From: Nitrospiria bacterium
GTDB taxonomy: Bacteria; Nitrospirota; Nitrospiria; DASWJH01
Direction of reading: 5' to 3'
Assembly (NCBI GenBank): GCA_036397255.1
Contig: DASWJH010000064.1
Location: 1-41,739 of the forward strand
Length of the DNA stretch: 41,739 nucleotides
Part shown: one piece after another, positions 164-32,752 of the stretch
Layout: each line of letters opens with the position of its first letter
Numbering within the stretch: the first letter of the stretch is position 1
Notes under the pieces: model-generated
The model's database searches: none
What the model was told of the DNA's origin: nothing
What the model saw: only the letters and a program-made list of their open reading frames with translations
Made by a program: the position numbers and the translations under genes

Positions 164-1978
164 ATGAAAAAAGGAATTTTAATTGGAGCGGTTTTCTTAA
201 TGATCGGTGTAGCGATTGGCGGAAAAATGATATTGGATGAAATAAAAAAACAGAAAGAAGATGATCGGCTTCTGTTTGCAAGCGGGAAGACGGAGGCCTG
301 TTTGAGCTGCCATGAGGGAAGCGAGGAGGCCCACCCCAAGGCCCCGCTTCACTGCACGGCCTGCCATCTGGGAAATAAAGACTCAAGCGAAAAAAGCGCA
401 GCCCACCAGGGGATGATCGAAAATCCTGGAGATTTAACCGTGGCCGATCAGACTTGCGGGACCTGCCATAAAGAGATCGTCGATCGGGTCAAACGCTCAT
501 TGATGGCCACCCGGTCCGGAACGATGAGCGGATTTCTTTATTTGAACGGATTTCAGGAGAAAAAAGAGGAAGCCCAATATGCCTTTTCAAAGTATGAGAT
601 TTCTGCGCTTCCCGGATATGAACCGGATCGACCGGGGACGACCGACCGGCTCTTGCCCTTTCCGACCTATGCCACGACGAAGAATGTTTTCTTTGATCTC
701 ACCCGAAAAGCCTGTATGCAATGCCATCTCTGGACGGAAGGGGTCCAGCGAAAGGCGGACTACCGGGGAACGGGCTGTTCCGCCTGCCACATGACCTATG
801 ATACCGAGGGATTGAGCCAAAGCGCCGATCCTACCATTCCCAAAAACAAGCACGGCCATCCCGTCAAACATCAACTGACGACAAAAGTTCCCATCTCCAC
901 CTGTGCCACCTGCCATGCGGGGGGAAACCGAATCGCCATGGCCTTTATGGGAAAAATGGAACAGCCGGGGCGCTATGATGTGCTGTTTCAGGACCTGGAG
1001 CATGGCCATACCTATTCCGATCAGGTTCCGGACATACATTATGAAAAAGGGATGGTCTGTATCGATTGCCACACGATCAACGAAATCCACGGGGATGGGA
1101 ATATCTATTTGAAAAAGGTCTATCAGTTGGAGATTCGGTGCGAGACCTGCCACGGAACGGCCCAAAGCTTTGGCACGGGCATCACCGCCATGGGAAACAG
1201 ACTGCCGAATTTAAAGATTGAGAAGTCCCCCGGTAATGAAAAGGGACTGGCGAAGCTCACGCTGACCTCCAAGCTGGATGGAAAAGAGCACCCGGTTCCT
1301 CAGATTAAAGAGGGGTCCGGAGAGGTGTCTGTGAAGGCCCATCAGATTCAAGGCCACATAGAGAAGATGGAATGCTACGCCTGCCATTCGGCATGGGTCC
1401 CGAAATGCATGGGATGCCATATCCAGATGGACCTCACACAGCAGGCCAAACCGATTCATGTCTCCTACGATCATCTGGAGAAAAAACAGAGTGAATTCGG
1501 TCTATATACCCTCATCGACGGGGTCCGGGAGGCAGAGAAGGACTACCTGTTGGGGATCAACCACCGGGGAAAGGCGGCCCCCTTTGCGCAGAGAAGCTCC
1601 GTCGTCTATACCCTCATCGATGAATCGGGGAAAGTGGTCTATAAACGACGTCCCCAAAGGACGGGAGAAGATAAACTCGGCTTCGCCCATAACCCGACGA
1701 TCCCCCACACCGTCAGGAAAGAGACACGAAGCTGTGCAAGCTGTCATGAAAGCGAAAAGGCGCTGGGTCTTGGGGCCTCTCCCACGAAAAACTATCCTAA
1801 ATTGACCGGCTTCATGCCGGAGGAATTCCTTTGGGACCGGATTGTGGATGAAAGGGGAAACCCCGCTCAGGAGACCTCGTTGGAGTCGGCAAGGCCGTTC
1901 AATCGAGAAGAGATGCAGCTAATTCGCCAAGCGGTGACGAAAAAAGTCTATGTCGAGTCCGTTTCGGCAGGGAATTAA
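164..1978 (+). CDS. Membrane-anchored 11-haem cytochrome c
   Basis: The 604-residue protein has one N-terminal hydrophobic segment (about residues 4-20), probably an uncleaved signal anchor. It then has eleven CXXCH haem-attachment motifs, whose first cysteines are at about residues 46, 64, 98, 184, 205, 247, 299, 326, 404, 415 and 524. Extra histidines between motifs could serve as distal haem ligands. Haem c is attached outside the cytoplasmic membrane, so the protein should carry electrons in the periplasm or toward the cell surface. GAGGA lies 6 nt before ATG 164 and fixes the start. The preceding cytochrome tail and the two following exported proteins suggest a redox locus at the envelope. 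The electron donor and acceptor cannot be read from sequence. Large multiheme cytochromes of this kind are typical of metal-cycling and nitrogen-cycling bacteria. Confidence 0.93.
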   Translation: MKKGILIGAVFLMIGVAIGGKMILDEIKKQKEDDRLLFASGKTEACLSCHEGSEEAHPKAPLHCTACHLGNKDSSEKSAAHQGMIENPGDLTVADQTCGTCHKEIVDRVKRSLMATRSGTMSGFLYLNGFQEKKEEAQYAFSKYEISALPGYEPDRPGTTDRLLPFPTYATTKNVFFDLTRKACMQCHLWTEGVQRKADYRGTGCSACHMTYDTEGLSQSADPTIPKNKHGHPVKHQLTTKVPISTCATCHAGGNRIAMAFMGKMEQPGRYDVLFQDLEHGHTYSDQVPDIHYEKGMVCIDCHTINEIHGDGNIYLKKVYQLEIRCETCHGTAQSFGTGITAMGNRLPNLKIEKSPGNEKGLAKLTLTSKLDGKEHPVPQIKEGSGEVSVKAHQIQGHIEKMECYACHSAWVPKCMGCHIQMDLTQQAKPIHVSYDHLEKKQSEFGLYTLIDGVREAEKDYLLGINHRGKAAPFAQRSSVVYTLIDESGKVVYKRRPQRTGEDKLGFAHNPTIPHTVRKETRSCASCHESEKALGLGASPTKNYPKLTGFMPEEFLWDRIVDERGNPAQETSLESARPFNREEMQLIRQAVTKKVYVESVSAGN

Positions 1979-1985
1979 AGGACCA

Positions 1986-3038
1986 ATGAATACGCCCGGA
2001 AAAAGTATTTTAAATTATCGTAAATCAGCCATCGGATGGGGAATGGGCCTGATTCTCTTTATTTTATTGTTTCCATCCGTAGTGAAGACCGATGAAGCGC
2101 GGTATTTTTACGATGATTTGGGGCGATTGATCGGTGTGGTGGACGGGCAGGGGGATGTTGCGGTTTACAACTACGATGCAGTGGGAAACCTCCTTTCGAT
2201 CGAGCGTTTTGCCTCAAGCGGGACCGATATCGGGATCCTGGCCCTTTCCCCTTCAAAGGGAGAGGTCGGCATCGATGTGGAGATCCAGGGCTACGGGTTC
2301 AGTCCAACCCCCGCCGACAATCAGGTGGCTTTTAACGGAACCGCGGCGACGGTTTCATCATCCACCCCCAATATCATTATTGCCGCCGTTCCGTCCGGTG
2401 CGACAACGGGCCCCGTGACGGTCACCAATTCCAACGGCACTGCCACAAGCCCGGAACCTTTTACCGTTGTTGCTGCTCCCACCATTTCCGGAATTGATCC
2501 CGATCGGGTGGGACAGGGAACGACCATCACAGCTGTGATATATGGGGATAACCTGTCCGATTCCCAGGCGGTTACTTTTTCCGGGGGAGGGATTTTAGCG
2601 GAGATCCTCCCCGGTGCAACATCCGACAGCCTTCCGATCCAACTCACGGTGGGCTCCAACGCTCCGGTGGGAGACTATACGTTTACGATCACCACTTCGG
2701 GAGGCGAGGCCCAGAGCGATCCAATCACGGTTACCGTTGCCCCTGCCATGGGCTCTTTTTATAACGCAAGGCTGAGTGTCTTTATGCCGCTGATCACCGA
2801 TGTCCCCGGAACCGTTTCACCTTCCGGGCCCACACAATCGGCCGCACCTCCGGTCAGCGTTCGATTACCGGTGATCTCAGAGGTCCCGGCGGCTGTTGCG
2901 CCCTCAGGGCAGGGTTATGTTTCCCACGGTCCCACGAGTGTGGAGATGCCGATCACTGGTACGGTTCCAGCCACCAGCGCGCCATCGGGGAGCACCATGA
3001 GCGTTGCACCGCCTGAAAGTGTCTTTATGCCTGAATAA
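1986..3038 (+). CDS. Exported YD-repeat / IPT-TIG protein with C-terminal 27-residue repeats
   Basis: I chose ATG 1986 because AAGGA sits 5 nt upstream; an earlier in-frame start at 1950 would overlap the cytochrome gene. The product is about 350 residues. Residues 15-35 are a signal or membrane segment. Two YD (RHS-type) units follow (YFYDDLGRLIGVV and YNYDAVGNLLSIE), then two Ig-like IPT/TIG domains (about 65-165 and 165-255). The C-terminal 90 residues are three degenerate 27-residue units with the pattern VSVxxPxIxxVPxxxxPSGxxxxxxPP, and a fourth unit begins at the end. Such proteins are extracellular and usually structural or adhesive. The gap to the cytochrome is 7 nt, implying co-transcription. 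The very short YD section makes this look like a minimal relative of RHS proteins, without a toxin domain. Confidence 0.8.
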   Translation: MNTPGKSILNYRKSAIGWGMGLILFILLFPSVVKTDEARYFYDDLGRLIGVVDGQGDVAVYNYDAVGNLLSIERFASSGTDIGILALSPSKGEVGIDVEIQGYGFSPTPADNQVAFNGTAATVSSSTPNIIIAAVPSGATTGPVTVTNSNGTATSPEPFTVVAAPTISGIDPDRVGQGTTITAVIYGDNLSDSQAVTFSGGGILAEILPGATSDSLPIQLTVGSNAPVGDYTFTITTSGGEAQSDPITVTVAPAMGSFYNARLSVFMPLITDVPGTVSPSGPTQSAAPPVSVRLPVISEVPAAVAPSGQGYVSHGPTSVEMPITGTVPATSAPSGSTMSVAPPESVFMPE

Positions 3039-3060
3039 TTATTTTCGAAAGGAGTGAAAG

Positions 3061-4440
3061 ATGAAATCAAAGAAAATCATTCAAGGGATCAGCGAAGTAG
3101 GCGTCCTACTGCTTCTGCTTTGGGCAAGCCAGGTCTCCGCTCAAACCTTCAGCAGCGGGAGCACCGGGGCGGATGGGGCTTTCAACCCGTCCTCCAACGT
3201 AACGGTCACGCTTCCCCCCGATGGAATCCTCAATTACACGACCGTCAACATTGCATCGGGAAGAACCGTGACCTTTCAACCAAATGCCGCCAATACCCCG
3301 GTGACGATATTAGCCACGGGGGATGTGACGATCGCGGGGACCACCAGTGTCAACGGATCCAAAGGGTCCAACTTTTCCACTGTAAACCTGATTAATCCAG
3401 GCGGGGCTCCCGGTCCCGGCGGATTTGTTGGAGGGCAGGGAGGCTCTCGCGGATTGGCCAATAATTCCGGATCCGCGGGCCAGGGGCCGGGGGGAGGAAA
3501 TCCTGCGTTGAGGACCTCCGGGGGAGGAAATTACGGCGCGCCCTCCTCTTTTGAATCCCTTATTCCTCTGTTTGGAGGCTCCGGGGGTGGGGGAACGAGC
3601 GGAGATTCCAATAATGCAGGTGCCTCCGGGGGAGGCGGTGGCGGTGCCATTGTCATTGCCTCCACCACCAAGATAACCGTAACGGGCACGATCACCGCCA
3701 ATGGGGGTGCGGAATCCCTACAATTTCAGCAAAGCGGCTGCGACGGTGTAGCAGGAGGAGGAAGTGGTGGGGCCATCCGTTTGGTGGCTCCGGAAATCAC
3801 GAATACCGGAAACATTCGAGCGCTTAAGTCAGGCGGATCGGCTTTGTGTAGCGGTGGCGGGACCGATGGCCGAATACGCATTGAAGCGTTTGTGACAGGG
3901 AGCATCCTGGCAACCAACCCGCCGGCATCCCTTGTGGATACCCCCGGACCGATAACCGCCAACAGCACCCCGTCGTTGATTGACTTGCCGATCCTCACGA
4001 TCAGTTCGGTGGGCGGGGAGACTTCACCTCCGAACCCAGGCGGCTCTTTTACATCAGCCGATGTCTCTTTGCCGAACGGAACGACAAACCCCGTGCCGGT
4101 AACATTAACGGCCAACAATATTCCGGTCGGCACCGTGTTCACGGTCAAACTGATTCCGCCCTTTGCCAATCCAACGTCCGTAAACAGCTCGGCATCCACG
4201 GGGACTTTTTCAAGCGCCACAGCCACGGCCAACATCAATTTTCCTCAAGGGCAGATCAGTGTGCTCAATGCGTTTGGCAGCTTCACGCTTCCCCAAATGG
4301 CCTCCAATCCTTTCCCTGTCTTTGTGGAAGGGGAGAAGGTGGAGAAAATCAAAGTGGCGGCGGTGTACGGAGGGGATTCTTCGATTTATCTCGTCACCGA
4401 ATCGGGCCGGGAAGTGCCGTATCGATTGCTAATGCAGTAG
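3061..4440 (+). CDS. Secreted Gly-rich protein of unknown function
   Basis: The 459-residue protein starts at ATG 3061 behind a strong AAGGAGTG ribosome-binding site. A Sec signal peptide ends at about residue 27 (VSA|Q). The mature part opens with beta-rich Thr/Val/Asn repeats. It continues with a glycine-rich core (about 100-240) containing runs such as GGGGGGAIVIAS and GGGSGGAIRLVAP, and ends in a beta-sandwich-like C-terminal half. This Gly-rich pattern recurs in exported proteins of deltaproteobacteria and myxobacteria whose function is unknown. The gene is 22 nt downstream of the YD/IPT gene and probably shares its transcript. Two cysteines in the Gly-rich core could form a disulphide. 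There is no enzymatic motif, so a matrix or surface role is inference only. Confidence 0.75.
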   Translation: MKSKKIIQGISEVGVLLLLLWASQVSAQTFSSGSTGADGAFNPSSNVTVTLPPDGILNYTTVNIASGRTVTFQPNAANTPVTILATGDVTIAGTTSVNGSKGSNFSTVNLINPGGAPGPGGFVGGQGGSRGLANNSGSAGQGPGGGNPALRTSGGGNYGAPSSFESLIPLFGGSGGGGTSGDSNNAGASGGGGGGAIVIASTTKITVTGTITANGGAESLQFQQSGCDGVAGGGSGGAIRLVAPEITNTGNIRALKSGGSALCSGGGTDGRIRIEAFVTGSILATNPPASLVDTPGPITANSTPSLIDLPILTISSVGGETSPPNPGGSFTSADVSLPNGTTNPVPVTLTANNIPVGTVFTVKLIPPFANPTSVNSSASTGTFSSATATANINFPQGQISVLNAFGSFTLPQMASNPFPVFVEGEKVEKIKVAAVYGGDSSIYLVTESGREVPYRLLMQ

Positions 4441-5164: not shown

Positions 5165-5356
5165 TTATGAAATGACCTTTAAAATTTCCTTTTCAAAGGC
5201 TTTTCTCCCCGTCAGTCTATCCAACTGAGCCTGGACCGTTCCCCCCCGTTCAATTGGGGAGAAGAGATCCGTTTCCTTTTGTCCTTTTTTTAGTATCTTA
5301 TTATGACTCAATATGGTCTTTTGGCCCTTTTTGGGAATTGCGGGTTTTGAGGACAT
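5165..5356 (-). CDS. Doubtful 63-residue ORF between foldase and thioesterase
   Basis: This basic ORF begins inside the 3' end of the peptidyl-prolyl isomerase gene in another frame (56-nt overlap). It ends 13 nt before the thioesterase start, so the thioesterase ribosome-binding site follows its stop directly. Translational coupling would be possible. There is no Shine-Dalgarno sequence before its ATG and I recognise no family. It may be chance, or the remains of a longer C-terminus of the upstream gene after a frameshift. Confidence 0.25.
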   Translation of the reverse strand: MSSKPAIPKKGQKTILSHNKILKKGQKETDLFSPIERGGTVQAQLDRLTGRKAFEKEILKVIS

Positions 5357-6437
5357 TTTGAAGGGACGTATGATGAGTTAGATAATCAGGGTCAATCTGA
5401 ATGGAAGCTTTCTCTTTTAACCCGTTAATCCAGCTTTCCCGTTGAGCATACCATTTTTGCTGACGGATGATTTGGGAAATTTTCTCCCGAACATCCTTTA
5501 AGGAAATTTCTTGGGCTGATTTTTTGCCTAAAACTTGGACAATGTGATACCCATACCTTCCCTTGACCGGAGGGCTGATGGATTGCGGTTCCAGGGAAAA
5601 AACAACTTTTTCAAAATCTTCAAAAGAACTTCCCCGAAGTATCCACCCCAGATCCCCTCCAATATTCCGACTCATGGGATCCACAGAGAATTGTTTGACT
5701 GTTGATTCAAAAGGTGTTCCCCTCTTCAGGGAGGCCAAAACCTGTTTTGCCTCAGCTTCCGTTCGGGTGAGAATATGCCGGGCGTGTACCTGGTCTTTTC
5801 TAAAAGAAACCTGATAGGACTCCCAATAGTTCTGAATTTCATTTTCCGGGACTTCAATATCCTTTGAAATGGATTCTTCCAATTTCTGAATGATAAAGGT
5901 TTCCCGTGCCCCTTTTTTCCATAAGAGTGGGTTTGTTTTTCCTTTTTTAAGAACTTCCAGAAAAGCCTCCTCGGATGGAAATGAAGATTGTAATGCAAGA
6001 TACTCATGATCGACCAATTCGTCTGGGATTTCAATTCCTGCCTCCTGAGCTTTTTGGAGAAGAAGTTTTTTGGTTACCAAGTCGTTGAGTATTTTTGAGA
6101 AAAACTCCTTTTTTTCAATTTCTGACATTTTCCCAAAGCCCTCAGGATTCATGGATTCGTATTGACTGGCAAGAAGATCAAATTCTTTACTGCTGATTTT
6201 TGCAGTGTTTACAATCGCAACGGTTTCTGGGGAAAGAGGGCTTTGGGAGTCTAAGGATAAAGAAGGGGGGGGTGTTTTTTCCTGGTTTCCGTTTTGTGTA
6301 GAGGAAGAACCCTCACATCCCTGGCCCTGAAAGGATAAAAGCAGGAGGGTTCCTAACATAAGATAAAAAGTGAGTTTTTTGAGGCGTTTCATTAAGGGGG
6401 GGATCAGCAAGGGCATTTTTAAAAGAAAATTCCTCAT
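5301..6437 (-). CDS. Periplasmic parvulin-type peptidyl-prolyl isomerase (SurA/PrsA-like)
   Basis: The product is 378 residues from ATG 6437. Internal starts at 6416 and 6392 exist, and the last gives a classical basic n-region (MKRLKK) before the hydrophobic segment. That segment ends in GQGC, so the protein may be a lipoprotein, although the lipobox is imperfect. A helical SurA-N-like chaperone region (about 70-190) precedes one parvulin domain (about 215-310). The parvulin domain has the typical ARHIL, GGDLGW and GYHIVQV elements. Such proteins help newly exported outer-membrane or secreted proteins to fold. The window encodes many such clients. No Shine-Dalgarno sequence precedes any of the three starts. 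A TATAGT box lies 17 nt before 6437, but its -35 partner is poor. Confidence 0.88.
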   Translation of the reverse strand: MRNFLLKMPLLIPPLMKRLKKLTFYLMLGTLLLLSFQGQGCEGSSSTQNGNQEKTPPPSLSLDSQSPLSPETVAIVNTAKISSKEFDLLASQYESMNPEGFGKMSEIEKKEFFSKILNDLVTKKLLLQKAQEAGIEIPDELVDHEYLALQSSFPSEEAFLEVLKKGKTNPLLWKKGARETFIIQKLEESISKDIEVPENEIQNYWESYQVSFRKDQVHARHILTRTEAEAKQVLASLKRGTPFESTVKQFSVDPMSRNIGGDLGWILRGSSFEDFEKVVFSLEPQSISPPVKGRYGYHIVQVLGKKSAQEISLKDVREKISQIIRQQKWYAQRESWINGLKEKASIQIDPDYLTHHTSLQNVLKTRNSQKGPKDHIES

Positions 6438-6640
6438 TTGCCAAAATTTTTTTTACTATAGGCATTCTAACATTCCATCGAATAGGGGTGCAAGTCTTGA
6501 AAAATTAGGATGAATTGGACCTGAAAATCTAAGAAAAGGAAAACCTGGGGAGACTTGACAAAATGAATTTGGCTGCTAATCTTACCTCTAGTAATTGTGA
6601 AACAAGCAGTCATTCAGGAATTAAAAGGAAAAAAGTATAT
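6438..6640. other. Intergenic region before the riboswitch
   Basis: This is the first half of a 432-bp gap between divergent genes. It contains no credible ORF. Apart from the promoter at 6555-6582 and a possible minus-strand TATAGT at 6455-6460, I see no structure in it. The second half of the gap is the riboswitch, terminator and ribosome-binding site described separately. Confidence 0.5.
6555..6582 (+). promoter_or_regulatory. Sigma-70-type promoter for the riboswitch transcript
   Basis: A perfect TTGACA (6555-6560) is followed after 16 nt by TAATCT (6577-6582), which is preceded by TG to form an extended -10 (TGCTAATCT). Transcription would start near 6589, about 55 nt before the riboswitch core. 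Confidence 0.55.
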
Positions 6641-6757
6641 AGCATCACCACCGATAAGGGCACACCCTGGCGAAAGCGGGGGTCGCAAAGTCCTTGACCT
6701 ACGTTCCAAGCCCGTTGGTTTGGAATAGGGTTTGAAGGTCCGCCGAAGTGGTAGGTT
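6641..6757 (+). promoter_or_regulatory. c-di-GMP-I (GEMM) riboswitch aptamer
   Basis: The class hallmarks occur in the right order. P1 is formed by ACCAC (6647-6651) and GTGGT (6748-6752). AGGGCACACC (6657-6666) matches the AGGGCAAACC of the Vibrio Vc2 aptamer. A GAAA tetraloop (6672-6675) closes P2. GTCGCAAAG (6682-6690) matches GACGCAAAG and contains the A that stacks between the two guanines of the ligand. TTCCAA (6694-6699) and TTGGAA (6719-6724) form P3. GCCGAAG closes the fold. The residue equivalent to Vc2 G20 is G, which favours c-di-GMP over the cGAMP-binding GEMM-Ib variant. Inference: it controls the 868-residue lipoprotein gene at 6870 through the terminator downstream. Confidence 0.85.
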
Positions 6758-6776
6758 TTTTATCCTATCCAATTAG

Positions 6777-6813
6777 GCCTGCATCTCTTAAACGGGGTGT
6801 AGGCTTTTTTTTT
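6777..6813 (+). terminator. Intrinsic terminator in the riboswitch expression platform
   Basis: GCCTGCATC (6777-6785) pairs over nine positions, with three G-U wobbles, to GGTGTAGGC (6796-6804). It is followed directly by nine T residues (6805-6813). It lies between the aptamer and the regulated start codon, as expected for a transcription-attenuating riboswitch. GGTAGG at the aptamer's 3' edge (6750-6755) can instead pair with CCTATC (6764-6769), a possible switching helix that would compete with P1. Confidence 0.75.
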
Positions 6814-6869
6814 CAGGTGGTGGAGCTGTTGATGACAAAGGGACCGCAAAATAAAGGAGGATTTGTACA

Positions 6870-9476
6870 ATGCATAGCCCATGGCAATTAAAAAGAATCG
6901 CCACCGGAAGTTGCATGGTGGCAACCATTGTCTTCTCCATCTCCTGTTCAGGGGGGGGAGGATCCAACTCTCTTACCAATTCAGATGGGGAGGTCCTTTC
7001 CAGTAAAACCACAGGTTATGATGTTCCAACCGAAATCTCTGCTGTTTCGACAAATAACAGCTCGAGCAACAAACCTACGAATGATGCATCGAACTCAGGA
7101 AGCGGATTCGGAGCGAAATTCAAAGCGCTTCGAATGGCAGCGACCGATGCCGGGACCGATTATTCCAATGCGAAAACCAAACGGTTTGTGGAAGATCGGA
7201 CGTTGGAGCAGTTCGAAATCATCGAAGAAGTGCTCAATGCCTTGAACCAGACCCATTATTCGGATCCGGCGAATATTAATCTGGGGCCGTATAAGGCGAT
7301 GGTGGCCTGGGAAGAGGAGTCCAACGGGATCGATGTCAAGCAGCTCCAGCCTTGGGTGGTTGATTCCAGGATGATCGTAGAGAATGGGCAGGATGTGAAC
7401 CGGGTCCTGGTGTGGATTGAGGAGGCAGGCCCTGATGGGGTAGAGCTCATTAAGGCCCAATTTAAAGCCTATCAATCTGCCACACAAAATAGCGATGGCT
7501 CCTTTGCGGATTACGGCGTTTGGAACATGGATGTAAAATTTGGAGATTCTTTAACCGATTTCTTTGTGGCCTCCGCGACTATAGAAAATGGGGTTTCCGT
7601 CATTAAACTTCAGGATGTATTTCCGGAAAATGGAACCACTTTCTCTCACAAAGGAATCATTTACCGAACGGATACCACCGGTTACGGGAAGGTTGAATTT
7701 CCGGATTGGGAAGCTGTGGATTGGGGAAACTGCGGTAACAATTGTATTCCCATTACCACGGATGCCATTTATGCCTACAATGCTGATTTTTTAGCGGTAC
7801 AGAAGGGCAGCGATTCGGTCCTGTCTTTTGATCGAAACAGTTCCACTGAAATGACCCATCGCTATGGATTATTTGATGGTGCCACCGGTCAAAATGTCAA
7901 TAAAAGCAAAACGTTTGGTTTTCCCATTACGTATTCCCTCAACAACATCAACCAGTTTGGTTACTATGGCGCTTGGCAGGGGAGACATGAGATCTGGGGT
8001 CCCGAGGGAACGATCCCAGAAGGTACCGTGGTGACGCGTCAAGACCGTGGACCGGATCAAACCGCCGAGACCTACACGGTATCGGCACCTTTTACCGGAA
8101 CCTTGGTGAAGCGTTCCACCGTTACCGGCTCATTGGCAGACATTCAGGGAATTCCGGTGGAGACCTGGATCGGGAAATTTTACAATTTAATGTATGACGG
8201 TAACGTTTCCAAGTGGTTTAACTGTGTGAATCCCACCTGGGATCAGAACGGAATGACCTGCGGAAGTCTCGACGATTTTCCTTCCATCATGCTGGCCACC
8301 CTTGAAGTGGGTGCAAACGATAACCGGAAATTTGTGAATATCAACCGATGGGATAACAATTCCCAAACCAATGTGGAATATGTCTACCTTTCATCCGGAC
8401 CGTCAGGGGCAGGTTTCTATGTGGCCACTTTCGATCAACAAACCGGAAAATACACATCTACGGGAACCCTTTATTCCCCCAATCACCAAGAGCAAATTTG
8501 GGCAAACGTCGGCGGATCGATCTACATCGAATACAATGGTCCCGCCTGGGTTGAAAAGGAGCTGGTCTCTTTCGATAACCGGACCTGGACACCGGAATTT
8601 GGGACCAACGATAAAACGTATACCTTGCCGTTGAATGAGGAGCTTTATATCAACAGCAAGGGGACCAATTACATCGTTAAGAGGACCGGAAGCAGTACCT
8701 ATGACGTGAAGCTTGAAATCCAGACGGTTGCCAATCCGGTGAATGCTTCAACATTTGTTTCATCGGGGACGGTTTTTAAATCCCCCTGGAATCCGGACAA
8801 CGATTCGACGTTTACGTTCGATACGGATTCGAACAGCTCAACCTTCATGAAGCTGAAATATCTGACCGTTGGAGAGAATGATAAAGATAACCAGGGAAAT
8901 CCCAACCAAGGGGTTGCGGTCGGGGCGGTTGTAACCAGAGGGTTATGGGGAATTGAGGCCTATGTGAATAATACCGCCACCGGGACCCAATTTAACTGGG
9001 ATTACCCGAGGGAGGGGGAGACCTGGGGAACGTTGAAATACCTGATTGATTCCAATGGGGACTATGTGTTGGTTTCGGATCCGATCCGTTTTTCGACCAT
9101 TACCCTGACCAACGGAGGAGGTCAACAAAAGAACTTGGCTCTACAGTATGATGGGTGGATGCACGGAATGCCCAACTTGTACGAGGAACTCCGTAAAAAT
9201 GATTTTGTCATGAGCTCAACCATCTCTGACAAAATCATTAACATTCCCGCGGGGACTCAAGTTGACGATGCTGATGTCTCCGGTCAGAGTTATTTGATCA
9301 AACCTCTTGAAACCAGCCTTTTCTTGGCAGCGGTGTCGAATCCCTCCGATCCACCGGATCTGACCTTGGCCAATGCGTTGGACCTTTCGGCGATTCCTTC
9401 CTTTGTGGATCACGGAATGGGAGCGATGCCTTCTACAACAGGAGTCAGATACTCTGAAGGAAAGTTGATCGAATAG
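6870..9476 (+). CDS. Large putative lipoprotein of unknown family under riboswitch control
   Basis: The 868-residue product starts at ATG 6870 with AAGGAGG 9 nt upstream. The N-terminus has a basic n-region, a hydrophobic stretch and ISC at residue 26 followed by SGGGG. This is a lipoprotein-like signal, although position -3 is Ser rather than Leu. A low-complexity Ser/Thr/Asn linker (about 30-75) leads to a long beta-rich body full of Asn, Gly, Trp and Tyr. Two close cysteine pairs (about residues 290-294 and 450-463) suggest disulphides outside the cytoplasm. I recognise no catalytic motif or named domain. Being the sole gene between a c-di-GMP riboswitch and a strong terminator, it is a one-gene c-di-GMP regulon member. 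A role in adhesion, matrix or surface polymer binding is inference. Confidence 0.8.
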   Translation: MHSPWQLKRIATGSCMVATIVFSISCSGGGGSNSLTNSDGEVLSSKTTGYDVPTEISAVSTNNSSSNKPTNDASNSGSGFGAKFKALRMAATDAGTDYSNAKTKRFVEDRTLEQFEIIEEVLNALNQTHYSDPANINLGPYKAMVAWEEESNGIDVKQLQPWVVDSRMIVENGQDVNRVLVWIEEAGPDGVELIKAQFKAYQSATQNSDGSFADYGVWNMDVKFGDSLTDFFVASATIENGVSVIKLQDVFPENGTTFSHKGIIYRTDTTGYGKVEFPDWEAVDWGNCGNNCIPITTDAIYAYNADFLAVQKGSDSVLSFDRNSSTEMTHRYGLFDGATGQNVNKSKTFGFPITYSLNNINQFGYYGAWQGRHEIWGPEGTIPEGTVVTRQDRGPDQTAETYTVSAPFTGTLVKRSTVTGSLADIQGIPVETWIGKFYNLMYDGNVSKWFNCVNPTWDQNGMTCGSLDDFPSIMLATLEVGANDNRKFVNINRWDNNSQTNVEYVYLSSGPSGAGFYVATFDQQTGKYTSTGTLYSPNHQEQIWANVGGSIYIEYNGPAWVEKELVSFDNRTWTPEFGTNDKTYTLPLNEELYINSKGTNYIVKRTGSSTYDVKLEIQTVANPVNASTFVSSGTVFKSPWNPDNDSTFTFDTDSNSSTFMKLKYLTVGENDKDNQGNPNQGVAVGAVVTRGLWGIEAYVNNTATGTQFNWDYPREGETWGTLKYLIDSNGDYVLVSDPIRFSTITLTNGGGQQKNLALQYDGWMHGMPNLYEELRKNDFVMSSTISDKIINIPAGTQVDDADVSGQSYLIKPLETSLFLAAVSNPSDPPDLTLANALDLSAIPSFVDHGMGAMPSTTGVRYSEGKLIE

Positions 9477-9583: not shown

Positions 9584-10789
9584 TCACCGTATTTCGACCG
9601 GGCTGTTTTTAAGGATATAAATGGGATTGGAATAAATCCATGTGTACCGATGGGGAATAAAGAAAGGGGATATCCATTCAACCTCCACTTCTACACGGTA
9701 GATCCCCGGCTCGGTTGTTTCGAAATCAAGGGGGCCATTCTCCTTTTCCTTGATGACCATTCCATTATGAATGAGCTTGATTCGGTAGGTTTGAAAGGGG
9801 GAATCAGGTCCGGTGGAGGCCTCCAATCTCACAGGGTTATGGGAAACAATTTGATCACCCATAATCACCTGTTTCCCGGTTTGGGTCAACCCCCGAAACA
9901 TGAATCCCCTGGGGTCCCCCAATAAATCCAACGCCAGATAAAGGTGACCTTTTTTAAGCGCCCCGTAGAGGTTTTTTTTATCCTGTGACAAATCTCCGGT
10001 GAAAGGTTGGGAGAGCAGGAGGTGATTGCTGACGAGGGGCATTGTTTTTTCCCGGGGAGGGAATTTGAGGTAATAACCCTTTGTTATACGAACCTGATCG
10101 TGGAGGTCCGGGGAATAAATGCCTACCACTGGTTTTTTTGAAGTCAACCCATCCCATAGGCTCATCACATCATGGGGCTTGCTTAGAATTTGGAGTAAGG
10201 CATAGGAGGGATTCAATGGAAAAGTCATCATGCCCCAAAAAAGATATAAGGGATTTGTTTTTCTCCATTGATCATCAAGGTCAATAATTTCCATTCCAAT
10301 GGTTCCGTCTACATCCCAATTTTTCCATTTGAATCGATCGTTCAATGGATGGGAGATGAACGCCATCCCCCCCTGGTCTATGACCTCATTTACCACTGCC
10401 TGGGGTTCCTTTTTCCTTCCCTCCTCCACGGCTTGGGTAATATTAATCGCTAAAATATAGCCCCCCTCCATGCTGACCTCTTCTCCCACTAAAAATAGAA
10501 GGCGGTTATACCACCCCTCTTTTTGGGCCAAAAGAGGTTTTAGTGTGTTATGGTCGGTTGAAATTAGAAAATCCATTCCTACGGCGTTACCTGCTTTTGC
10601 CACTTCTTCTACGGTACCTTCACCATCGGAATAAGTGGTGTGCAGGTGAATCAAACCCCGGTAATCAAAAAAACCATGAGGGAGTCTTTTGTGTTTTGGA
10701 TGGTATTCAGGAAAGGACACCGAATCTATTCGAAATCCAATGCCTGCCAAAAGAAGAACCAATAGGATTAGCGTTCTTTTGAATTTCAT
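9584..10789 (-). CDS. Membrane-anchored PHP-domain metal-dependent phosphoesterase
   Basis: The product is 401 residues. A hydrophobic N-terminus (about 5-20) is a signal or anchor. The PHP domain follows, with HLHTTYSDGEG at residues 48-58 (His48 and His50 are predicted metal ligands), STDHN at 77-81 and an ISHPLND motif near residue 160. PHP proteins are metal-dependent phosphoesterases found in polymerases, histidinol phosphatase and stand-alone nucleases or phosphatases. An exported version would act in the periplasm. The last 110 residues look like a beta-sandwich and lack PHP motifs. The substrate is unknown. The gene stands alone, convergent with the lipoprotein gene and divergent from the haem-oxygenase-like gene. 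There is no clear Shine-Dalgarno sequence; the start was chosen because the signal begins there. Confidence 0.87.
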   Translation of the reverse strand: MKFKRTLILLVLLLAGIGFRIDSVSFPEYHPKHKRLPHGFFDYRGLIHLHTTYSDGEGTVEEVAKAGNAVGMDFLISTDHNTLKPLLAQKEGWYNRLLFLVGEEVSMEGGYILAINITQAVEEGRKKEPQAVVNEVIDQGGMAFISHPLNDRFKWKNWDVDGTIGMEIIDLDDQWRKTNPLYLFWGMMTFPLNPSYALLQILSKPHDVMSLWDGLTSKKPVVGIYSPDLHDQVRITKGYYLKFPPREKTMPLVSNHLLLSQPFTGDLSQDKKNLYGALKKGHLYLALDLLGDPRGFMFRGLTQTGKQVIMGDQIVSHNPVRLEASTGPDSPFQTYRIKLIHNGMVIKEKENGPLDFETTEPGIYRVEVEVEWISPFFIPHRYTWIYSNPIYILKNSPVEIR

Positions 10790-30457: not shown

Positions 30458-32752
30458 ATGGATAAAAATGTCATAAAAAAGCATATCCGCGGATTTGAAA
30501 TATTATTTATTTTTGTTCTTTTTTTAGCCGTATCCTCCCTTTATGGATTGGGTTTTTTTGAACGATTTGAACTCATCCTCATTGATTCCCGTTATCGAAT
30601 TTTTCCAGCCCCAAAGGACCCTTCTATTGCCATTGTCGCCATTGACAAATCAAGCCTAAAAGAGCTTCCCCAGTGGCCTTGGCCCCGGACCTTCCACGGG
30701 GGGGTGGTGAATCAACTGAGGGAGAGTGGGGCTCGGGTTATTGGTTTTGATATGGATTTTAGCGCCCACCGGATTTTCGAAGAGGATATGGCCTTTTCCA
30801 GGGAAATCCAAAAAGCAGGAAATGTGGTTTTAGGGGGTTTTTCCGAAATCCGTCTGGTGGCAGACTTAAAAATCCAATCCTCCAGTTTCCCAATCGAAAC
30901 CTTATCAAAAGTCTCTACCGGTGTGGGAACGCTGTCCTTTCCTTCCGATTTGGATGGAGGGGTTCGGCGGGGCTTTCTTGATAGTGAATTAAATGGGGAA
31001 CATTTTTTGGGTTTTGGAGCTGAAATTTACCGGGCCTATAAAGGACTTTCAAGGAATGACATTAAATGGTTAACCCCCCGCACACTTCAGATGGGAAATT
31101 TAGAACTCCCTTCTGATTCCCACCATATTTTTTACGTTCACTATGCGGGACCTGCGGAAACCTTTCCGACTTATTCTTATTCGGATGTTTTAAAAAAAAG
31201 AATTGATCCAGCGGTTTTCCGCGATAAAATTATTTTGGTTGGCGCTTCATCCGTAGAGTTACAGGATTTATGGAACACTCCTTTTCAAGGTTTAATGCCG
31301 GGGGTGGAAATCCAAGCCAATGTGGTCAATTCATTATTAACGGGAAGTTCTCTTTATCGCATTCCTTCTTTTGGGTCCATTTTAATACTGCTGGGATTTA
31401 CTCTGATTTGGGTTAGTTTTTCTTCTTTTTATGTCTGGAAATATGGGCGATGGAAATCGCCCATTTTTTCCTGTTTTGCCCCTGTTTTTATTCTTTTTTC
31501 TCTTTCAATGGTTGTCTCACTTAGACTTTTTTCCCATCATCAATTGATTTTAGATACATCACCGATTATAAGCCAACTATTTGGAATGTTTATGGTTTCA
31601 GCTATTATGTTGATGATCAAATCCGCCCAAGAAGTCGATGAGAAGGGCCTGAGTCTCACCACCCTTCAATCCGTGGGAAGTCTTTCACATGAGAACAGGT
31701 CCTTGGAGGATTCAATCAATTTTATTCTTTCCATGCTTCAGGAAACCATGAAAGTCGACTACAGTGTGGCGGAAATACTGGGCGAAAAGGAAAACCGCAG
31801 CGTCATCACAAAAGGGAAACCTCCCGGTAATGTTGATGGGATGGCCCCTTATTGTAAAGGTTGGGTAGAAAGGGTTTTCGCAGAAAAGAAAAGCTACAGC
31901 GTTAATGGCGGGGTGATATTTGGTTCCGAAAAAGGGAAAAGGAAAAAACCTCCGATCTCAAGCCTTTTTTCCCCGATTTTAACCCATGGTAAAACTTTTG
32001 GCGTTTTGCATGTTCACCATCTGGGAAAACGAAAATTCCAAGAAGATGATTTGAAAATGCTTTTTACCATTGCCAGTCAATTGGCACTGGTCATTGAATA
32101 TGAACATTTGCTTGGGGAGATGAAGGAGCTTTTCCTGAACACCCTGGAGGCATTCTCTTCAGCTTTGGATTTTAGAGACAATGATACCGCGGGTCATTCC
32201 CAAAGGGTTACTGCCTATTGTATGGAAATTGGGGAAGAACTGGGCCTTTCTCCCCCAGATTTAGAAGTGGTCAAACAAGGGGGTTTGCTTCATGATATCG
32301 GAAAGATTGGAATTCCCGATTCCATCTTGAATAAACCTGGTCCTTTAACCGAGGAAGAATATACGGTCATGAAGCAACATGCTGAATACGGTTTTGGAAT
32401 GCTAAAAAATATTAAACAATTACGGGAAGCCTCGCAAATCGTTTATCACCATCAAGAGCGATTTGATGGAAGAGGATACCCCCAAGGGTTGCGGGGAGAA
32501 GAAATTGTAATCGGAGCCCGAATATTTTCCGTGGCCGATACCTATGACGCGATGACATCCGATCGAGTTTACCGAAAGGGAATGTCGGATGAGGAGGCCA
32601 GAGAGGAGATTTTAAGATGTTCAGGGTCCCAATTTGACCCTAAGGTGGTCGAGGCATTTATGCGTTTGCCCAAGGAACGAATGTTTTCCATCCGGGAGGA
32701 TGTAAAAAAATTAATGCAACGTTCTTCCCGACATACCCTCCTTTTCCGGTAA
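30458..32752 (+). CDS. CHASE2 sensor with HD-GYP c-di-GMP phosphodiesterase domain
   Basis: The 764-residue protein has an N-terminal membrane helix (about 12-32) and an extracytoplasmic CHASE2 domain (about 35-310, with IAIVAIDKSSL and WPWPR typical of the family). Three membrane helices lie at about 312-400. A GAF-like domain covers about 410-550, and an HD-GYP domain about 555-745. The HD-GYP domain has HSQRV, LLHDIGKIGIPD (His612, Asp613), HHQERFDGRGYP (GYP at 673-675) and DTYDAM. Complete HD-GYP motifs predict hydrolysis of c-di-GMP to GMP, controlled by a periplasmic signal through CHASE2. GAGG is 5 nt before the start. It heads a group with a FecR-domain protein and an outer-membrane barrel. 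The predicted enzyme would lower the ligand of the riboswitch at 6641-6757. Confidence 0.94.
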   Translation: MDKNVIKKHIRGFEILFIFVLFLAVSSLYGLGFFERFELILIDSRYRIFPAPKDPSIAIVAIDKSSLKELPQWPWPRTFHGGVVNQLRESGARVIGFDMDFSAHRIFEEDMAFSREIQKAGNVVLGGFSEIRLVADLKIQSSSFPIETLSKVSTGVGTLSFPSDLDGGVRRGFLDSELNGEHFLGFGAEIYRAYKGLSRNDIKWLTPRTLQMGNLELPSDSHHIFYVHYAGPAETFPTYSYSDVLKKRIDPAVFRDKIILVGASSVELQDLWNTPFQGLMPGVEIQANVVNSLLTGSSLYRIPSFGSILILLGFTLIWVSFSSFYVWKYGRWKSPIFSCFAPVFILFSLSMVVSLRLFSHHQLILDTSPIISQLFGMFMVSAIMLMIKSAQEVDEKGLSLTTLQSVGSLSHENRSLEDSINFILSMLQETMKVDYSVAEILGEKENRSVITKGKPPGNVDGMAPYCKGWVERVFAEKKSYSVNGGVIFGSEKGKRKKPPISSLFSPILTHGKTFGVLHVHHLGKRKFQEDDLKMLFTIASQLALVIEYEHLLGEMKELFLNTLEAFSSALDFRDNDTAGHSQRVTAYCMEIGEELGLSPPDLEVVKQGGLLHDIGKIGIPDSILNKPGPLTEEEYTVMKQHAEYGFGMLKNIKQLREASQIVYHHQERFDGRGYPQGLRGEEIVIGARIFSVADTYDAMTSDRVYRKGMSDEEAREEILRCSGSQFDPKVVEAFMRLPKERMFSIREDVKKLMQRSSRHTLLFR

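Follow-up and report, generated by a model that had tools for sequence, protein, structure and literature searches.

The leader of a conserved lipoprotein gene in a Nitrospiria bacterium carries a class-I c-di-GMP (GEMM-I) riboswitch, which probably acts as a transcriptional OFF switch for this one gene. The leader belongs to GEMM-I by both sequence and structure, its linkage to the lipoprotein gene is conserved, and mutually exclusive helices are conserved among the orthologous leaders. The decisive evidence for the aptamer is comparative and comes from these orthologous leaders. The switch itself is well supported and of a known and ordinary type; its conserved target family is new. The DNA analysed (the window) is contig DASWJH010000064.1 of assembly GCA_036397255.1, positions 1-41,739 of the forward strand, and the features of the locus are collected in Table 1.

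Table 1. Features of the riboswitch locus in the window
Feature	Position	Strand	Details and basis
Putative promoter	6555-6582	+	-35 TTGACA 6555-6560, 16-nt spacer, TG 6574-6575, -10 TAATCT 6577-6582
P1 5' strand	6647-6653	+	Pairs with 6749-6756, A6753 bulged; partial-transcript folds
GEMM-I (c-di-GMP-I) aptamer	6649-6747	+	Rfam RF01051, 37.0 bits; ortholog-only model, 37.3 bits
Antiterminator strand GCC	6742-6744	+	Holds ligand-pairing C6743; pairs with GGC 6776-6778
P1 3' strand	6749-6756	+	Folding; 6749-6755 doubles as 5' strand of anti-P1 hairpin
Anti-P1 strand CCUAUCCA	6764-6771	+	Pairs with UGGUAGG 6749-6755, U6768 bulged
Intrinsic terminator	6775-6813	+	Stem 6775-6787/6794-6806, U-tract 6805-6813
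Ribosome-binding site GGAGG	6856-6860	+	Sequence; 9 nt before ATG 6870
Lipoprotein gene	6870-9476	+	ORF, 868 aa, single gene

The Aptamer and the Expression Signals

At curated thresholds, Rfam gives exactly one match in the whole 41.7-kb window, RF01051, which spans the full-length model and lies above the cut-off of 35 bits (E 8.5e-4 over all families); when the whole genome is searched with this family alone, the E value of the window aptamer is 1.6e-5. The margin over the cut-off is small and, of the genome's 16 GEMM-I copies, this aptamer scores lowest. It is recovered at 6645-6748, with an E value of 2.6e-8, by a covariance model of the orthologous leaders from which the window was left out, and the window leader folds better than all of 200 shuffled sequences (z -3.5). 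The preliminary description of this DNA had assigned the leader to GEMM-I, proposed a covariance search as a check and listed the hallmark segments; the search is significant and all segments are seen at or near the places given, with AGGGCACACC at 6657-6666, the GAAA loop of P2 at 6672-6675 and GTCGCAAAG at 6682-6690. G at aligned position 20, also named there, is confirmed by the Rfam and ortholog alignments, which place the ligand-site bases at G6659, A6687 and C6743; we take these to be G20, A47 and C92 in Vc2 numbering. P1, P2 and P3 all form in the folds. P2 has its GNRA loop and one G-G mismatch, and the P3 element CCUACG/AAUAGGG resembles a tetraloop receptor in sequence.

Compared with the Vc2 and Cd1 representatives of RF01051, the window shares the aptamer core, the ligand-site bases, the GAAA loop and P1, but differs in its low score, in its P2 internal loop and in its target, a lipoprotein with no family match. 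The internal loop has C and U (GCACACC ... GUCGC), in place of the A and purine seen in nearly every other copy. These coupled changes, A24C/A43U in Vc2 numbering, are found in the window (6662-6664 and 6682-6684), in another copy of the same genome (L005) and in L068; one never occurs without the other in these three cases, so that a tolerated structural pair is favoured over random decay. The related c-di-GMP-I-GGC family (RF03167) belongs to the same clan as RF01051, but in its consensus the A47 position is G, and the window and its orthologues have A there. Assignment of the window to RF03167 was rejected (33.5 bits against a cut-off of 59, with A6687 at position 47). Ten orthologous leaders (L026, L028, L029, L032, L035 and L040-L044) do pass the RF03167 cut-off and, since they lack the G47 that appears to define it, these matches are likely an annotation trap.

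The expression signals and the single-gene target of the preliminary description also hold. The terminator has its stem and its nine T residues, GGAGG precedes ATG 6870, and the gene stands alone between a divergent upstream neighbour (5301-6437, SurA/PPIase-like) and a convergent downstream one (9584-10789). A plain consensus promoter scan of the window did not find the promoter at 6555-6582 because its -10 element is poor; the promoter is assigned from the comparison of leaders, as all 21 leaders have TTGACA separated by a 16-nt spacer from a TAnnnT-type -10 element, which mostly follows TG-n.

The Lipoprotein Gene and Its Linkage to the Riboswitch

The lipobox-type cysteine of the encoded protein is residue 26, in register with the orthologues, which are 35-64% identical. 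The family is present in 25 of 270 genomes of the class, counting the source genome and one marginal match. No sequence match to the protein was found in Pfam, NCBIfam, PHROG or PDB, and weak calmodulin rows in the sequence search were rejected as not significant. Its predicted structure is mostly β (mean pLDDT 79.5), and a Foldseek comparison of the model with PDB gave nothing at E ≤ 0.001. Gene neighbours at L017 and L020, checked for hints of function, are housekeeping genes without a common theme.

All 20 orthologous loci with enough upstream sequence to be scanned have exactly one GEMM-I aptamer upstream of the lipoprotein gene on the same strand. One further locus (L038) starts inside the gene; two others, L045 and L046, gave no GEMM match in 351 nt and about 417 nt of upstream sequence, respectively, and their genomes have no GEMM-I anywhere. 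In five gammaproteobacterial homologues, the 3.7-5 kb of upstream sequence scanned contains no GEMM, by which a universal linkage of GEMM to the lipoprotein is rejected.

The window leader from 6640 to 6760 is closer to two A20 copies of its own genome (L005 and L001) than to the orthologous leaders, although its promoter matches those of the orthologues. It is possible that the leader was replaced by a paralogous copy, as judged from these short sequences.

The Switching Helices and the Direction of Control

Terminators are present in 18 orthologous leaders, and in these the 3' strand of the aptamer (UGGGCYRC) is complementary to the 5' arm of the terminator (GYRGCCCA). Across 17 distinct rows, 97.1% of the cells in this 8-bp antiterminator are paired, compared with 26-48% after sliding of the partner, and 12 cells are changed on both sides in a compensatory manner, a level reached by none of 500 shuffles, although, the rows being related, the shuffle control cannot be read as a probability. 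Likewise, none of 20000 permutations reaches the summed own-strand duplex energy of these leaders. The 5' arm is shared by antiterminator and terminator, and the terminator itself contains no aptamer strand. The last antiterminator pair contains the base aligned with C92, which makes ligand binding and antitermination mutually exclusive. A second hairpin nested inside the antiterminator re-uses the P1 3' strand, as it does in the window. Two leaders of one family (L039 and L043) keep the aptamer without a matching terminator, and that of L043 has no U-tract; their regulation may be translational.

In the window, constrained folding gives P1 as the lowest-energy fold for transcripts ending up to 6775, the antiterminator for ends at 6778-6802, and P1 together with the terminator at 6804-6806. 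At transcript ends 6787-6797, the anti-P1 hairpin (6749-6755/6764-6771) has a pair probability of 0.95-0.99 and the GCC 6742-6744/GGC 6776-6778 contact one of 0.93-0.98. The preliminary description had GGTAGG alternating between P1 and CCTATC as the switch. The alternation holds, with P1 exchanging for CCTATCCA (6764-6771), but the hairpin by itself misses the terminator stem, and it was rejected as the whole switch: the GCC/GGC contact is also needed. As modelled, the hairpin would be half of the antiterminator, and the terminator would be reached by the GCC/GGC contact.

The mechanism we propose starts with the folding of the aptamer and P1 on the nascent RNA. When ligand binds, P1 and C6743 would be held in the aptamer and the 5' arm of the terminator (6775-6787) would stay unoccupied; the terminator hairpin (6775-6806) and its U-tract would then halt transcription ahead of the gene. 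In the ligand-free RNA, the 3' strand of P1 would fold forward (6749-6755 with 6764-6771), and GCC 6742-6744, including C6743, would pair with GGC 6776-6778. This pairing would occupy the terminator at its base, letting RNA polymerase read through into the gene. As the terminator would be favoured by ligand, high c-di-GMP is predicted to lower the lipoprotein. In the Cd1 OFF switch the antiterminator pairs the ligand-binding cytosine (PMC9262584); the window resembles it in terminator layout and in silico likewise has a terminator free of aptamer strands and an antiterminator that captures the ligand-pairing C. Since only 2-4 kcal/mol separate the constrained folds and at 6813 the ensemble is ambiguous, the direction of control in the cell is one that we infer.

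GEMM-I leaders of both directions exist, and in the ON switch of the Geobacter pilM leader the terminator requires an aptamer strand (PMC9262584). That ligand would raise lipoprotein expression here as in pilM is very improbable, as the terminator is separate both in the window and in the orthologues, with the aptamer strand forming part of the antiterminator instead, a strand layout that disfavours an ON switch. It is also rather improbable that the switch has decayed, keeping its fold but having largely lost regulation, so that the terminator would merely set a constant level of read-through. The lowest score among the 16 copies, the P2 mismatch and an antiterminator contact of 3 bp in place of the 8 bp of the orthologues would fit decay, and cross-species duplexes are at least as good as the one formed by the aptamer strand and terminator arm of the window itself. 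Yet the ligand-site bases are kept, the A24C/A43U pair recurs at two other loci, and P1, the anti-P1 hairpin and the terminator are all intact, and they replace one another in the order that a working device would require.

The Choice of Ligand

G20 together with A47 favours c-di-GMP as the ligand of the OFF switch, an identity that we infer from these aligned bases. A at position 20 is reportedly, from papers of 2015 on cGAMP riboswitches, the marker of a preference for cGAMP. The GEMM-Ib criterion is this A20, and the window has G6659 there; the G20A change is discussed in PMC6274999. The same switch with 3',3'-cGAMP, or both nucleotides, as its natural ligand is nonetheless an alternative to be weighed, though an unlikely one. 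The genome encodes a cyclase with the Ser/GGDEF signature of the Hypr type and seven of its GEMM-I copies have A20, so that sequence alone cannot settle the ligand; the window leader resembles two of these copies (L005 and L001), and a change of the equivalent G in Cd1 had no large effect (PMC9262584). Against cGAMP stand G20 in the window and in the whole supported clade of orthologues to which it belongs, all of which have G20.

The other nine copies in the genome have G20. G. sulfurreducens has 17 GEMM copies per genome (PMC6456294), and the present genome resembles Geobacter, with its GEMM-Ib leaders of pilM and pgcA, in aptamer fold, in copy number (16) and in having a Ser/GGDEF cyclase, but the window differs from these leaders in having G20 instead of A20, and its terminator layout is OFF, unlike the ON layout of pilM. 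Three clusters of three GEMM-I copies each occur in the genome (G000), at C46 (22996-23524), C48 (464-1487) and C17 (5579-10048), comprising loci L002-L004, L008-L012 and L015; the C46 trio precedes one secreted Fn3-like protein and fits into 530 nt.

The genome has 35 GGDEF and 14 EAL matches. One cyclase (L100/L135, C96:22903) combines Ser at the selectivity position with a GGDEF signature, the active Hypr combination, while another protein (L102, C99:276) has Ser with GGEEF, which is reported to be inactive (PMC6456294). Given the former gene, cGAMP may be present in the organism. Proteins with the Ser/GGDEF (Hypr) signature were found in 22 of the 24 related lipoprotein-bearing genomes searched (loci L112-L141). 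In the window, a CHASE2-GAF-HD protein with an HD-GYP-like motif (30458-32752) is a candidate cyclic-dinucleotide phosphodiesterase. The window also encodes a multihaem c-type cytochrome (164-1978, Cytochrom_c3_2 and C7 matches), followed by secreted repeat-like proteins (1950-4440).

Base 20 and the Evolution of the Switch

Most of the orthologous leaders have G as base 20, while L034, L037 and L039 have A and L027 has C; at least three changes of this base have occurred. In the protein tree, three changes are needed to account for the A20 state across all bootstrap ranges; A20 may have been gained three times, or gained once and lost twice. The organisms with drifting base 20 probably make both signals, judging from their cyclase genes. 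It is conceivable, though doubtful, that one ancestral riboswitch-lipoprotein unit, kept throughout this Nitrospira-related class, has repeatedly swapped c-di-GMP (G20) for cGAMP (A20) and back while keeping its target, with both signals being made by canonical and Ser/GGDEF cyclases. This apparent drift of base 20 in orthologous leaders, as read from the sequences, would be the surprising part of the finding. A literature search returned no paper joining Nitrospirota, riboswitch and c-di-GMP, and a fixed pairing of riboswitch and lipoprotein across the class, with repeated changes at base 20, appears to be undescribed.

The present analysis assigns a conserved lipoprotein family without a recognised domain to the cyclic-dinucleotide regulon of a bacterial class that has been little studied, and the link to the riboswitch is the first functional handle on this family. 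As a guess, the lipoprotein may belong to the surface of cells in a motile or dispersed state, a role that its loss at high c-di-GMP would suit. With base-20 changes occurring beside Ser/GGDEF cyclases, a swap of ligand in the riboswitches of one gene becomes directly testable and, if true, it would amount to a natural experiment, outside Geobacter, in the rewiring of second messengers.
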